Source: an uncultured Candidatus Melainabacteria bacterium (GTDB lineage Bacteria; Cyanobacteriota; Vampirovibrionia; Gastranaerophilales; Gastranaerophilaceae). From it: a DNA stretch of 64,000 nt. The first letter of the stretch is position 1. Every line of letters starts with the position of its first letter. Both the position numbers and the translations under genes were made by a program. The notes under the pieces were generated by a model. It ran no database searches and was not told the origin of the DNA. It was given only the letters and a program-made list of their open reading frames with translations. The stretch spans positions 1 through 64,000 of the forward strand of contig CATLFB010000006.1 in the NCBI GenBank assembly GCA_949927415.1. The letters are read 5' to 3'. Shown here piece after piece: positions 4,212-51,710 of the stretch.

Positions 4212-5007
4212 TTAGTAATGCAAAGGATAATCTTTTGGAATATGCCAACCGTTGCGCTGAATTATTGCTGTACAATATACTCTGTGTGCATTTATATTGC
4301 ATCCGTAATTTTTATTATCATACAAATCTTGTTCATTGCCGTTCCACCAGGCCATATATTGTTCAACACCTTTGTTTTTGTGATGATTAAAACTTGAACC
4401 TTTTGTATTTTCATTAGGCCAAAATCCAAATGCAAATATTTTCATTCCTATATTTTTTTTGTCAAAATGTTCAGGGCGGCAATTTTTTGCTTCCGGACAA
4501 AAGTAAAAATGTCCGCCGGATGTTTGCCATGTCACCTCGCCATCATCGTTTTCTGCATAATATATATCAATTCGAGCAGCGCTTCCATCAGTAAAATATA
4601 CTATTTTCTCTTTTTTACTCTTTACAAAAAAATCTTCCACATTTGTATAATGAAGATGTTTTTTAAGATAAATATTCCAGAATTCATCAGTGTCTGCGAT
4701 TACCCAGTCTTTTTTGTCTCCATGTTCGTTTTCCGCAAGCATGATTGCCTGATTCATTGCAGAATAAAACTTTTTGAGACGTGACTCAATAACCGTTTTG
4801 TGTCTGTGGTGAACGAGTGCCGGCAATGTCATAGCGGCAACTATGCCTATAATCCCCAATGTTATCAGAACTTCGGCAAGGGTAAAGGCGTAGCGGCTTT
4901 TCTTTTTAAAATGATTTTTTATATTAAATTGAAAAGTGTCGAAACTCTTGCTATTAGCGGATTTGACGGGGGGGGGGGCACGTAATAATACTATCTTCTC
5001 TAAGCAT
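4212..5007 (-). CDS. Type IV pseudopilin-like protein interrupted by a C11 tract (candidate phase-variable)
   Basis: The body (stop at 4212) encodes AFTLAEVLITLGIIGIVAA, the prepilin cleavage site and N-terminal helix, then a globular domain ending NGWHIPKDYPLHY. The latter closely matches the pseudopilin at 12589-13284. No ATG exists in that frame upstream of the helix. The only well-placed start is the ATG at 5007, preceded by GGAGG at the ideal 5-nt distance. It is in the wrong frame because of an 11-C run on the coding strand (4968-4978). Losing one C, or gaining two, would join them into a 264-aa protein with a 36-residue cytoplasmic leader. As written the start frame ends after about 30 codons. 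This could be phase variation, a decayed start, or a homopolymer sequencing error. Confidence 0.65.
4968..4978. repeat. Homopolymer G11 (C11 on the coding strand)
   Basis: Eleven consecutive G on the + strand lie between the Shine-Dalgarno/ATG at 5007 and the pseudopilin reading frame. Tracts of this length are prone to slipped-strand mispairing. Each single-base change switches the frame that joins the two halves. Confidence 0.9.
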
Positions 5008-5114
5008 TCTGACCTCCAATTTCTAAATTTATTATTGACGATTTTAAAGATTTTATCAATAGAAAAATATTTTTTAGCTGTTTTAAAGCTTTATGTAATT
5101 TTGAAGTGCATAAA

Positions 5115-9308: not shown

Positions 9309-10007
9309 ATGAATAAAGCGTTTACTTTGGCGGAAGTTTTAATTACTATCGGTATTATAGGTGTGGTTGCAGCATTTACTCTTCCTGCTTTGATAGGAAC
9401 TCATCAGGAAAAAGCAACCGTTGCAAAACTCAAAAAAATATATTCGACAATGGCACAAGCATACTTATCTGCGTCTGAAGAGTACGGCGGATCTATCGAT
9501 ACATGGGATTTAGGTTCTGCTATAGGTAATTATAATCCTGATGGGAATGACAAACTTGCAAAAAGCTTTGCAAAATATCTTGACGTAAACAAGTTTTGCG
9601 GAAGTGAATTATATAATAATTGCTGGAGGGGAGTAACTTATCACTTGAGCGGAAGATATTTTGAAACTCCGAATGCTAACAGACATTCAAAAATGATTTT
9701 AAAAGACGGTACATTACTGGCCTTTTACCGTGACAATTGTGTAACTTATACTTGCGGAGGCTTTTATGTAAAATTACACAACAAAAATAATAATAATATT
9801 TTAGGCAGGGATGTTTTTTATTTCAAAATCAGAAAAGAAGGAATTCTGCCATTTACAATTCCAATTGACGGAGAATTTAGTACTTTTTGCCGCAAGGATA
9901 ACTCCCGCGGCTGCGCAGGCTGGGTAATTTATAATGAAAACATGGATTACTTGCACTGTGAGGGACTCTCATGGAATGGAGCTAAAAGGTGTAAAGATTT
10001 ACGCTGA
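9309..10007 (+). CDS. Type IV pseudopilin-like protein
   Basis: 232 aa. The leader is only three residues (MNK) before AFTLAEVLITIGIIGVVAA, so cleavage by prepilin peptidase and N-methylation of Phe are expected. A 20-residue hydrophobic helix is followed by a variable globular domain with six or more cysteines (for example KFCGSELYNNCWRG and CRKDNSRGCAG), which suggests disulfides outside the cytoplasm. The stop overlaps the convergent 9999-11582 gene by 9 bp. It has its own consensus promoter and lies next to a divergent XRE regulator. No pilus assembly genes are nearby. It may be a minor pilin or a surface protein using the pilin export route. Confidence 0.85.
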   Translation: MNKAFTLAEVLITIGIIGVVAAFTLPALIGTHQEKATVAKLKKIYSTMAQAYLSASEEYGGSIDTWDLGSAIGNYNPDGNDKLAKSFAKYLDVNKFCGSELYNNCWRGVTYHLSGRYFETPNANRHSKMILKDGTLLAFYRDNCVTYTCGGFYVKLHNKNNNNILGRDVFYFKIRKEGILPFTIPIDGEFSTFCRKDNSRGCAGWVIYNENMDYLHCEGLSWNGAKRCKDLR

Positions 10008-11737: not shown

Positions 11738-12592
11738 ATGTTGATAAATAGAATTCAAAATATAACAGAGGCTAAAAACTCTTATCTGAGTGTAAACAAC
11801 CAATCGCAAGTTAACATAAACGGAGCAAAATTCTCTTTTGGCCACGGTTCAAAGCCCGCCGGCGAAAACGATGAAATTCCTTCCCAATTGAAACGTGGAG
11901 TTCTTATCTCTACAGTTGCAGCAGTCGGGCTTGCATCTGCTTTGATTGCAAAAAAACAGGGATTTTCGCTGAATCCGAAAGTTATATTTTCTCAGAATCC
12001 GAAAAACTGGGCAATATTTAAAATATTCAACAAGCATGACAAAAATGCAAAGTTAATGGAAATTGAAGAGAAAGAAATTCTTATTCTTGCCGGAGCTTCA
12101 GCGGCAGGCGGACTTGCAGGCGGCGCTGTTTTTGATGAGAAAAAACATTTTAAAGGCAAAGTCCGCGAAACCGTAAACCAACTTCTCGGAAACGTTGCGG
12201 TTCCGGTTGCCTGTGTGAGCGCTGTTGCGCATCTTTATGATAAAAATAAGGCAAAAATTTTAAGCAATGTTCCTCAAGCGCCCGGACTTGGCAAAAAGAC
12301 GGCTATATTCAACAAGCTTTTAACAGCGCTTCCTTCTGCGGCAATGACAATCGCTTCACTTGGAGCGGGAATTGTCGGCGGAAATAAACTTTCAAACTTT
12401 ATAAACGACAAAGTTTATCATAAAAAAGTTGAGCGAAAGATTAAAACAACAGATTTTGCGCCTCACGTAGACGATATTAGCATGGCTGTTACTCTGATGG
12501 CTGACAAATCAGCCCTTTCAACAGCGATAACAAGAACTGTTCCTGCATTTTTGTGCGTCCCGGGATATCAAATCGGAACTCACAGAGGTTAG
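11738..12592 (+). CDS. Lineage-type membrane protein, paralogue of the 34995 gene
   Basis: 284 aa. The N-terminus MLINRIQNITEAKNSY...NGAKFSFGHG carries the recurrent NxxF leader. Hydrophobic segments occupy about residues 52-70 (GVLISTVAAVGLASALIA), 112-130 (EILILAGASAAGGLAGGAV), 150-165 and 195-215 (TIASLGAGIVGG). The C-terminal block FINDK...DDISMAV...CVPGYQIGTHRG aligns with FINDP...DDAFGAL...YTWCGYRAGQSN of the protein at 34995-35690. Family function unknown; an integral inner-membrane protein is likely. Its stop overlaps the convergent pseudopilin gene by 4 bp. Confidence 0.65.
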   Translation: MLINRIQNITEAKNSYLSVNNQSQVNINGAKFSFGHGSKPAGENDEIPSQLKRGVLISTVAAVGLASALIAKKQGFSLNPKVIFSQNPKNWAIFKIFNKHDKNAKLMEIEEKEILILAGASAAGGLAGGAVFDEKKHFKGKVRETVNQLLGNVAVPVACVSAVAHLYDKNKAKILSNVPQAPGLGKKTAIFNKLLTALPSAAMTIASLGAGIVGGNKLSNFINDKVYHKKVERKIKTTDFAPHVDDISMAVTLMADKSALSTAITRTVPAFLCVPGYQIGTHRG

Positions 12593-13284
12593 TACCAGAT
12601 ACGGTGCGGGTAATCTTTTGGGACTTTCCATCCGTTTTGCTGCAATAAAAGTGTGCAATACGCTCCCCATCCTGTGCGGCAGCCGTATTGCGGATGGTTG
12701 TACAGGGCATCCATACTTATATCCCAGTCGAAAGTGTAATTATAAGGCGCAAATTCCCGTCCTCTTTTAGTTGACGTAGAATTCGGGGAATAATGAAAAG
12801 CAAATTTGCATATTCCATAACCTTTATTGTTTGCTAGTCCGTATTTCGCAATACATCTGTCCGGATTCCCGGGGAAGAATATCCAGTCTCGTCCGTTAGA
12901 TGAAGCATTCATAAAAGCTCCGCCATCCTTTAAATGATATGCATACATACCGTATGAGTATTGTTTTTCTTTTATAATATGGAGATGCGGTGCAATATGA
13001 CGTTTTACCCAGGCATGATTTTTTGATTTCTCTTCTTCATCCAGACCGTACAGGTCTTCAAACCACTCTTTACGGTCGCCGCTTTTAACTTCTTCCAGCA
13101 TTATCGCCTGATTCATTACTGAATAAAATTTTTGCAAGCGTGCTGAAAGTTCTCTTTCTTTATGGCTTTGGATAAGTGTAGGCAAAGTCATGGCCATTAC
13201 CACTCCGATAATCCCAAGGGTTATCAGAACTTCGGCTAAAGTAAAGCCATTACAGATTAAAGATTTATTATTGTTATGTTTCAT
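12589..13284 (-). CDS. Type IV pseudopilin-like protein
   Basis: 231 aa. A 12-residue basic leader (MKHNNNKSLICN) precedes GFTLAEVLITLGIIGVVMA, a textbook class III signal. The globular domain contains paired cysteines and ends NGWKVPKDYPHRIWY, nearly the same ending as the phase-variable pseudopilin at 4212. The two are close paralogues, which also share the YSVMNQAIMLEE/YSAMNQAIMLAE segment after the helix. The ribosome binding site is GGAGGT before the ATG at 13284. It is divergent from an XRE regulator at 13366. No pilus assembly gene is adjacent, so its pilus or secretion partner is elsewhere. Confidence 0.85.
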   Translation of the reverse strand: MKHNNNKSLICNGFTLAEVLITLGIIGVVMAMTLPTLIQSHKERELSARLQKFYSVMNQAIMLEEVKSGDRKEWFEDLYGLDEEEKSKNHAWVKRHIAPHLHIIKEKQYSYGMYAYHLKDGGAFMNASSNGRDWIFFPGNPDRCIAKYGLANNKGYGICKFAFHYSPNSTSTKRGREFAPYNYTFDWDISMDALYNHPQYGCRTGWGAYCTLLLQQNGWKVPKDYPHRIWY

Positions 13285-48164: not shown

Positions 48165-48417
48165 TGAGTAATTTGGTCGGGGCAGATGGTGTGATTTTTT
48201 CGGGTAATCGGCTCTGTGTACGAGTTTGAGGGGTAGGAAATAATCAAACCATGTGAACCAAAATTACTCACTTTACTCTTTTTCTACTCAGGGCAGATGG
48301 TGTGATTATTTTGGGCAAACCTGATTTTTGAATAATAGCCTGATTTTTCGGGGGGGGGGTTACTTAGGTCAAATGGTATGATTATTTTGGGCAAATGAGT
48401 AATTTGAGTAATTTGAT
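48165..48417. repeat. Array of repeated sites, probable left end of the Mu-like element
   Basis: Four copies of a 20-28 bp site with core CATGGT/GATGGTGTGATTATTTT occur at 48181-48200 (+), 48237-48256 (inverted), 48290-48318 (+) and 48367-48395 (+). The last two also share TTTTGGGCAAA. A second box, TGAGTAATTT, accompanies them at 48165, 48261 (inverted) and 48396. Clustered sites of mixed orientation next to the transposase are how MuA/TnsB-type transposases recognise element ends. The rest of the 440-bp gap between the tRNA and the GNAT gene is A/T-rich, with a G10 run at 48350-48359. Confidence 0.7.
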
Positions 48418-48992: not shown

Positions 48993-50990
48993 ATGAAAAA
49001 CGAATATGTTAACATTAAAAAAATCGCACAGGCAAAGGGTTTGAAAAGCACTCGTTCAATCCGAATGGAAATCAACAAGTCCGAAAGCAAATATATTTCA
49101 AGAGAGGTTAAGGTTAACGGTGGCACTTCTTATGAGATCCTGTTTTCAAGTTTAGAGCCTGAATTACAACAAAAACTTCGTGAGAACGAAACAAAATCAG
49201 CAGCACTTGTGCCTCTGAATTATCAGCCTCCAGTTATAACAGATAAAGCAAGAATAACAGCTAATCATCGAATGAATATTGTCAAAGCCGCTCTTGAACA
49301 TCGCAAAAAATATAATACTCAAAAACAAGCAGACCACGAATTTTTAGAGTTATACAACACAGGATTATTTTTACCAAAAGCATACGAATTTCTTGGAAGC
49401 ATTTCAATCGGAACATTAAGGCGATACATTCAAGCCTATTTAAAAAGCGGAAATGCAGAGAATTTAGTTCCTCAATACAAAATTACAAAGCAGGGTGAAT
49501 ATAACGGCATATTAAATAATGATATGAAAAAAGTTCTGCTCGCTCTTTTACTTCATCAAAATAAATTCGGTTACAATACAGCCATTCGCTTGGCTAAACA
49601 AATATTAATTAAGCAAGGATATGATGAGGAAAGTTTACCAAGTAATATTACATTCAAACGATTTGCAGAGCATTTTAGAGATAATAATTATGCCGAATGG
49701 ACTCTAAAACGTGAAGGAATAAAAGCCTACCACGATAAGGTTGAGCCGTATATTGAACGAGATATTTCTAAAATCGAAGTGGGCGATGTTTTAATCGCAG
49801 ACGGTCACGTTCTTAATTTCCAAGTAATAAATCCATTTACAGGTAAGCCAACGAGAGCGACACTCGTTGGCTTTTTAGATTGGAAATCAACAACCCTTGT
49901 CGGGTATGAAATTATGATGAGCGAAAACACTCAATGTATCGCCTCAGCTTTACGGAATGCAATTTTAAATCTTGGTTTGATTCCAAAGGTTGTGTACCAA
50001 GATAACGGAAAGGCTTTTAAATCAAAATATTTTCAACATTGTGATTTTGAGGAGGGGGAATTTAACGGAGTGTATGCCAATTTAGGTATTCACTCCGTTT
50101 TTGCTAAACCATACAATGCAAGAGCGAAAGTCATTGAGAGGTTTTTCTTAGAATTTCAAGAAGAATTTGAAAAATTAATGCCAAGCTACATTGGTACTTC
50201 AATTGAAAATCGTCCTGCTTGGATGAACAGAAATGAAAAACTCCACCTTCAAATTCACGAGAAACAAACTGGTGGAAAAATTCCAACGGTACAAGAAGTA
50301 ATTAAATACATTGATTGTTGGCTTGAATTTCACAATCAAAAACTTTGTCCTAATGACCGTTCAATAACTATTCAAGAGGTATTAAACTCTGTTCAAAGAC
50401 AAGATATCAATAAATCAGCTCTTGATTATCTAATGATGAAAACAGAGGGCAGAACGATAAATAAACATGGCATTACATTCTTAAATATGCATTACAGAAG
50501 CGATGCAATTCTCGGACTCAGAGATAAAATTTATATCCGATACAGTTTATTTGACCTTTCAAAAGTCTATGTCTACTCTGCTAAAGGCGAGCCTTTATGC
50601 GTTGCACACAGAGTGCAGAAAGTTCATCCAATGGCAAGGGTCTTAGGAACGGTGCAAGATATGGAAGAATACAATCAGCAATACAAAAAGCAACAACAAA
50701 TAAAAAGCCGGCTGATTAAAAAAGTTAAATCGTACTACAAATCCGAAGATATTCCACTCTTGGAAATCGAGCCGGAAGTAATTGATGAAATCGCTCCAAT
50801 TCTTGAAGAGAAACCGAAACGTGAAAAGAAGAAAACACCTCGTGAACAGCAGATGAACAGACCGATTTTTGCAAATGATGCCGAGAAATATGAATGGTTA
50901 ATTGCTCATGGCTGTACAAACCAAGAGGACAGAAAATTTCTAACTAAATTTATACAAAGCGAACAATACCAATTATTATATGGAGATTAA
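48993..50990 (+). CDS. DDE transposase 1 (MuA/TnsB-like)
   Basis: 665 aa. The N-terminal region (1-60) looks like the Mu-type winged HTH that binds internal or end sites, and a second helical DNA-binding region covers about 85-245. The RNase H-like integrase core has Asp270 (LIADGH), Asp337 (YQDNGKAF) and Glu382 (AKVIERFF), a complete DDE triad. A beta-barrel domain then follows (about 440-560) and a basic, Lys-rich C-terminal tail that in MuA contacts the ATPase partner. The next gene, its ATPase, starts 4 bp after this stop. This transposase is not a close paralogue of the second one at 52895. Confidence 0.9.
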   Translation: MKNEYVNIKKIAQAKGLKSTRSIRMEINKSESKYISREVKVNGGTSYEILFSSLEPELQQKLRENETKSAALVPLNYQPPVITDKARITANHRMNIVKAALEHRKKYNTQKQADHEFLELYNTGLFLPKAYEFLGSISIGTLRRYIQAYLKSGNAENLVPQYKITKQGEYNGILNNDMKKVLLALLLHQNKFGYNTAIRLAKQILIKQGYDEESLPSNITFKRFAEHFRDNNYAEWTLKREGIKAYHDKVEPYIERDISKIEVGDVLIADGHVLNFQVINPFTGKPTRATLVGFLDWKSTTLVGYEIMMSENTQCIASALRNAILNLGLIPKVVYQDNGKAFKSKYFQHCDFEEGEFNGVYANLGIHSVFAKPYNARAKVIERFFLEFQEEFEKLMPSYIGTSIENRPAWMNRNEKLHLQIHEKQTGGKIPTVQEVIKYIDCWLEFHNQKLCPNDRSITIQEVLNSVQRQDINKSALDYLMMKTEGRTINKHGITFLNMHYRSDAILGLRDKIYIRYSLFDLSKVYVYSAKGEPLCVAHRVQKVHPMARVLGTVQDMEEYNQQYKKQQQIKSRLIKKVKSYYKSEDIPLLEIEPEVIDEIAPILEEKPKREKKKTPREQQMNRPIFANDAEKYEWLIAHGCTNQEDRKFLTKFIQSEQYQLLYGD

Positions 50991-50993
50991 ACA

Positions 50994-51710
50994 ATGAAAA
51001 AGACATTTATTAAAACGAAAAATGTTAAACGGTTTATTACTTTAATGGATGAACTTCAAAAACTTCCACCCAACATTCCAAAATTAGCCCTTGTTTATGG
51101 TGAACATGGGCTTGGTAAATCACAGACAATTCAATGGTGGGCTAATAAGAACGATTCGATTTATGTAAGAGCAACTCAAGGAATGACAAGCAGATGGCTT
51201 TTATCTGAAATTGCAGAAGAAATTGGCGAAGATCCGTATTGGCATACTCAAGAAACATTCAGCTTAATTGAAAACCATTTAAGACAAAATCCTAAAGTAA
51301 TAATTGTTGACGAGATTGATTATTTAATAGAAAAACACACCGTTGAAACCTTGCGAGATTTACACGATAAAACAGGCTGCCCGATTGTTTTGGTTGGAAT
51401 GGGAGCGGCGGATAAAAAACTTGCAAGATATCCGCATTTAATGGATAGAGTTTACAGACAACTTAAATTTGAACAATTTAATCAGGAGGATATTTCAGAC
51501 ATTTTATGCCAATTAACGGATTTAAGTTTTACTGAAGATTCAATAAATTATCTTGCAACACGCACAAACCAATTCAGGCAATTAGTTAAATTGATAAATA
51601 AAATTGAAAAATTATCTCAAACAAACCAAATTGAAGAATTAGACGAATACACATTGAAAGGACTTTTAAATGAAAGAGCGAATATTAAGACTTTGCAAAA
51701 GGTTGGATAA
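50994..51710 (+). CDS. Transposition AAA+ ATPase 1 (TnsC/TniB/MuB-like)
   Basis: 238 aa. Walker A is GEHGLGKS (residues 36-43), Walker B is KVIIVDEIDYL (101-111), and a sensor region has PIVLVGMGAADKKL with an arginine-rich MDRVYRQLKF after it. It lacks the N-terminal helix-turn-helix that the second ATPase (54846) has. MuB-type ATPases assemble on DNA, choose the target and activate the transposase. The gene sits between transposase 1 and the winged-helix gene, whose start overlaps this gene's 3' end by 41 bp. Confidence 0.88.
   Translation: MKKTFIKTKNVKRFITLMDELQKLPPNIPKLALVYGEHGLGKSQTIQWWANKNDSIYVRATQGMTSRWLLSEIAEEIGEDPYWHTQETFSLIENHLRQNPKVIIVDEIDYLIEKHTVETLRDLHDKTGCPIVLVGMGAADKKLARYPHLMDRVYRQLKFEQFNQEDISDILCQLTDLSFTEDSINYLATRTNQFRQLVKLINKIEKLSQTNQIEELDEYTLKGLLNERANIKTLQKVG

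Follow-up and report, generated by a model that had tools for sequence, protein, structure and literature searches.

A homopolymeric tract in the leader of a type IV pilin-like gene as a probable phase-variation switch, one of a genome-wide set in a Gastranaerophilales-type lineage

A type IV pilin-like (DUF6613) gene was found to carry an 11-base C tract in its cleavable leader, where the tract probably acts as a slipped-strand phase-variation switch and as one member of a genome-wide set in a Gastranaerophilales-type lineage. The gene lies in the window, the 64,000-nt stretch analyzed here, which corresponds to C6:1-64000 of the source genome (G000), a 22-contig draft. As read from the sequence, the present length of 11 keeps an ATG supported by a Shine-Dalgarno (SD) sequence out of frame with the pilin body, lengths of 10 and 13 would restore the frame, and dozens of pilin genes in each genome share this layout. 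By predicted translation, off is the default in each genome, where the frame read at the modal tract length soon runs into a stop. In the source genome, about half of the sixty-odd pilin-like surface protein genes carry a 10- to 13-base G/C run in their front piece. New here are the scale of the system, the matching of the off-frame stop to the modal tract length, and an SD-complementary (anti-SD) element after most G tracts.

Tract and reading frames at the window locus

All features of the locus are on the minus strand. The SD sequence GGAGG, read directly at positions 5013 to 5017, is separated by a 5-nt spacer from an ATG (5005 to 5007), and translation from this ATG passes through the C11 tract (4968 to 4978; G11 on the plus strand), the proposed switch, into a stop 14 nt past the tract, giving an off-state frame of 17 codons (MLREDSIITCPPPRQIR; 4954 to 5007 with its stop). 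The pilin-like helix FTLAEVLITLGIIG begins at 4886, in a frame that differs from that of the ATG at 5007. In the pilin frame, the tract is followed by the remainder of a prepilin leader, which contains no start codon (VKSANSKSFDTFQFNIKNHFKKKSRYA; 4887 to 4967), and by the type IV prepilin N-terminal hydrophobic helix (FTLAEVLITLGIIGIVAAMTLPALV; 4812 to 4886), with cleavage predicted just before its F. The predicted mature pilin-like protein occupies 4212 to 4886, including the stop codon at 4212 to 4214. The GGAGG, the 5-nt spacer, the ATG at 5007, and the out-of-frame 11-C run of the earlier note were all confirmed, as was its statement that no ATG stands ahead of the cleavage helix: for the pilin frame, the sole listed start, a TTG, lies within the helix, and none precedes it.

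At other tract lengths, translation gave products of 264 aa (C10) and 265 aa (C13), compared with 17 aa at C11. Both lengths join the ATG to the pilin body as the note had proposed, and its size of 264 aa applies to C10. Lengths of 9 and 12 led to early stops after 28 and 29 aa, respectively. Past the tract, the off frame other than that of the 17-codon product is open for 49 nt. A long 5' homopolymer of which one length class yields the full-length product and the other two run into early stops is the arrangement of a phase-variable gene, and it was found here.

The encoded protein

The N terminus of the window gene scored 21.0 bits against TIGR02532 (cutoff, 16.3) and 24.5 bits against Pfam N_methyl (PF07963; cutoff, 21.2), and the predicted mature protein matched DUF6613 (PF20318) with an E value of 1.1e-49. 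The segment FTLAE carries Glu at position 5 and opens a hydrophobic helix, as in the prepilin motif. Residue -1 is Ala (YA/FTLAE) rather than Gly, and the protein is for this reason termed pilin-like; in paralogs of the same window, this residue is G or A. A prepilin peptidase is encoded in the source genome (C1:251224-251613; PF01478 above the cutoff). A structure model based on six sequences (pLDDT, 70.7) had a long N-terminal helix (residues 9 to 61) and a four-strand meander sheet, and its best match in the PDB was gonococcal pilin 1ay2, which was not significant (E, 0.057; TM, 0.19). The closest orthologs, in G001, G004, G023, and G034, were 53 to 59% identical, and a search of viral contigs found no relatives. 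Pilin bodies that were off in the consensus of two species had a dN/dS of 0.16, i.e., were under purifying selection, and such bodies are therefore used.

Further pilin-like genes on the minus strand of the window, at 9309 to 10007, 12589 to 13284, and about 32540, had ordinary short leaders and no tracts. A prepilin-type start (MNKTRIWSAFSLVEMMMLLLIVS) at about 30387, also on the minus strand, heads a frame of about 930 residues, an unusual length for a pilin.

Gain of the switch

Syntenic orthologs of the window gene in G001 and G004 had leaders of 4 to 7 aa and no tract, and so did the homologs closest to it in G023 and G034. In the source genome, about 100 nt, including the C tract, lie between the start and the helix. 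Since the syntenic orthologs are short leadered and tract-less, the switch was gained at this locus in the source genome. The sequence TGGAGGT ahead of the ATG in the tract-less G001 and G004 orthologs resembles the window's TTGGAGGT. A related C-type leader was present on three other pilins of the source genome. The C-type leader was also considered as an inverted G-type element; the similarity was weak (p of about 0.001 at best, from two related copies), and this origin is not claimed.

G/C tracts across the source genome

The run-length survey took in 2.005 of the 2.176 Mb of the source genome (37% GC). G/C runs of 5, 6, 7, 8, and 9 bases numbered 392, 49, 5, 1, and 0, respectively, and those of 10, 11, 12, and 13 bases numbered 4, 12, 32, and 4, with one further run of 18. 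The spectrum was thus bimodal, falling off near 7 and rising to a second peak at 10 to 13. The 53 runs of 10 or more bases, one of which is the window tract, compare with an expectation of about 0.01 to 0.2 (about 0.015 by geometric decay and about 0.16 for the two bases by a low-order Markov estimate). At least 38 of the 53 stand ahead of a pilin helix or body, so that the locus which the note had described singly is one of at least 38 such loci in this genome, with up to 115 tracts in relatives. Among 70 helix motifs, a few of which are not pilins, 36 had a tract and 34 did not, and most of the tract-less motifs had an ordinary in-frame start. The number of tracts per genome ranged from 0 to 115 within the family and from 0 to 6 in other families of the order, and several relatives had pilins with few or no tracts.

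About 10 long tracts of the source genome were not at pilins, including those at C2:246513, C5:145961, and C1:388501 (L100, L149, and L080); two lay near the starts of other long frames, which have 500 and 365 residues, and the 18-base run was intergenic. Within the window, an intergenic G10 tract (48350 to 48359) was followed at a distance of about 630 nt by a Mu-type transposase gene (48993 to 50990), next to which a TniB-like ATPase is encoded (50994 to 51710). At some tract loci, including C1:382467 and C1:513450 (L080 and L086), the leader between tract and helix was 150 to 225 residues long, and these long leaders contained in-frame repeated sequence resembling palindromic repeat insertions.

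Tract length change and registers

Tract length differed between near-identical gene copies. In G001, the loci L186 and L204 had identical 50-nt flanks on both sides and carried G12 (out of frame) and G11 (in frame), respectively, and other copies in that genome showed similar differences. Orthologs in G001 and G011 had tracts of 11 and 12. One source-genome locus with a degenerate tract (G5-A-G6; MKTYGMTEFTGEGGPENKLLSRVLGFTLAEVL) had ATG, leader, and pilin fixed in a single frame, a relic that shows the on product to be start, leader, and pilin in one chain. The proposal that the tract is a phase switch drew support from this length variation, from the relic, and from in-frame versions at 20 of 152 loci (about 13%; counted over five family genomes and single loci of further genomes). 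In a near-strain comparison, G003 and G012 shared one 3.3-kb stretch at 98% identity, but their tract loci did not align; G002 and G011 had only three tract-locus pairs in common, at 84 to 91% identity. Loss of MutS was ruled out as the cause of tract instability because MutS1 was present in all 59 genomes.

Tract states were not distributed in random thirds; nearly all loci were off, in one register. Of the 34 tract pilins of the source genome with an SD-supported start, 30 were in one off register, 3 were in the other, and a single locus (C5:168466) was in frame. In-frame loci numbered 6 of 24 in G001, 6 of 32 in G034, 1 of 27 in G012, 5 of 22 in G003, and 1 of 13 elsewhere. The overall 20 of 152 was below one third (binomial p, 1e-8), although the copies are related and the count by distinct arrangements was 11 of 43, indicating that the bias toward off partly reflects copying. 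The register itself varied: in G034 the modal G10 was off in the register opposite to that of the source genome and G11 was in frame, and in G001 G12 was off and G11, again, was on.

The near-uniformity of the off register in the source genome (30 of 34 loci) and in G012 (25 of 27), which holds despite differences in tract length and in the spacing of the start, made slippage recoding the main rival. Under that explanation, the polymerase or the ribosome slips on the G/C run, and a fixed out-of-frame allele yields a low, constitutive level of pilin with no heritable switch. The retention of the same off state at G11 by the G001, G002, and G011 orthologs and the conservation of bodies in the off state are in its favor, and the single in-frame locus among 34 in the source genome is compatible both with a rare on state and with recoding. 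Recoding is nevertheless unlikely: in-frame alleles occurred in every genome analyzed, otherwise identical copies differed in tract length, and the modal off registers of G034 and the source genome were opposite, so that one fixed ribosomal shift cannot serve both, although polymerase slippage could go in either direction. A fixed programmed frameshift was rejected as the main reading on account of the in-frame alleles and the opposite registers. Genes with such frameshifts (prfB, dnaX, and insertion sequence elements) resemble the present loci in that two frames overlap, the register of the shift is conserved, and a stop lies close to where the shift occurs; they differ in that here in-frame alleles exist and the register varies between genomes.

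Off-frame stop and SD pairing in the leader

Of 139 loci, 128 had a stop codon within 18 nt past the tract in the modal off frame, and 15 had one that close in the other off frame. The off-frame stop tracked the modal tract length of each genome and was formed by TAA, TGA, or TAG over differing pilin-frame residues. Assembly error would not yield such a match, and the pattern recurs in independent genomes, which makes it very improbable that the tract lengths are misassembled; the body frames are intact and conserved, which argues against frameshifted pseudogenes. The draft state of the source genome (22 contigs) and the start of contigs C5 and C7 within 6 nt of a tract are what speak for an artifact. 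These two contigs (C5:6 and C7:6; L143 and L151) share their first 5 nt, followed in both by a 12-base tract and a leader fragment of identical sequence, which suggests that a repeated switch module interrupted the assembly.

Initiation downstream of the tract, with the leader frame as a separate short peptide, is the least probable reading, given that an ATG accompanied by an SD-like element in the interval from tract to helix, found at 14 of 27 loci in G012, was absent at the window locus and present at only 1 of 34 loci in the source genome, 0 of 24 in G001, and 0 of 32 in G034, and that the relic links the ATG to the body in frame.

The sequence CTCCT, complementary to the SD, occurred about 11 to 16 nt after most G tracts, in varying reading frames. 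At least 6 contiguous SD/anti-SD pairs were possible at 17 of 30 loci in the source genome, 19 of 24 in G001, and 23 of 27 in G012; the corresponding share was 3 to 11% for shuffles and 8% for 1,343 other genes. In predicted folds, the SD was paired with the CTCCT region at a mean probability of 0.5 to 0.78 in four genomes and 0.23 in G034, and covariation between genomes was modest. Such pairing was not found at the C-type leader of the window locus itself. In G-type leaders, a ribosome that stops in the off frame would leave CTCCT free to close the SD and would thereby tighten the off state. A more speculative extension is that the leader forms a compound default-off device, composed of a length-tuned tract, a stop in the modal frame, and an anti-SD that closes the SD; it might allow low-level expression by slippage and, having spread as a module over dozens of pilin genes, might provide a combinatorial pilin repertoire that is one step from on in a cyanobacterial gut lineage.

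Discussion

The phase-variation switch proposed for the window locus would operate by replication slippage of one base, by which a minority of cells would turn on single genes. The leader would then be cut off by prepilin peptidase, and the tract would therefore never touch the mature pilin; the outcome would probably be a population mixed in the pilins that it displays. For slippage, leader removal, pilus assembly, and population mixing, we infer this course from systems such as Neisseria pilC and the Campylobacter phasomes.

Phase variation by slippage is best known in pathogens, and no report of phase variation in the present lineage was found in the open-access literature searched. The opa genes of Neisseria form a multigene surface family in which each copy is switched independently by slippage. 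They are not pilins and their repeats are pentamers, whereas the tracts described here are homopolymers on pilin-like genes. The opa pentamers are listed in PMC5320596, as are pilC1 and pilC2, in which single-base length changes in a 5' poly-G run toggle the frame and the run varies from G9 to G15 between strains. The present loci resemble pilC in that a G run lies close to the 5' end of a gene for pili and that single-base changes in it would set the frame on or off. In contrast to pilC, a single pilus-biogenesis protein encoded in two copies, dozens of pilin subunit genes are involved here, the tract lies in a prepilin leader that a peptidase would remove, and off is the default. Campylobacter genomes likewise combine low GC with many long G/C tracts, most of them in reading frames, and have homologs with interrupted tracts (PMC6321876), as found here. 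The Campylobacter tracts lie in diverse genes and are mostly G9 to G10, with an on fraction near that of neutral drift in a larger data set (PMC6321876), whereas those of the present lineage are concentrated in one pilin family and are mostly G10 to G13, with about 13% in frame.

If the switch reading is correct, about half the members of a large pilin family would be under the control of slippage in an uncultured, cyanobacteria-related lineage of the gut, and cell-by-cell diversification of pili by commensals, for adhesion or for escape from phages or immunity, becomes testable. Standard gene calling would assign wrong starts to many such pilins or miss them.

For the RpoB of the source genome, the closest entries were 8syi, 8h3v, and 8gzg, RNA polymerases that we take to be cyanobacterial. 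The RpoC is split, the first piece being 576 aa long. These features and the gene content fit a nonphotosynthetic, Gastranaerophilales-type cyanobacterial lineage, the name of the order being our inference. A metagenome-assembled genome labeled Heliobacteriaceae bacterium Gx481_bin109 (L275 and L276) carried the same family of pilins; it probably belongs to this lineage and is misnamed.
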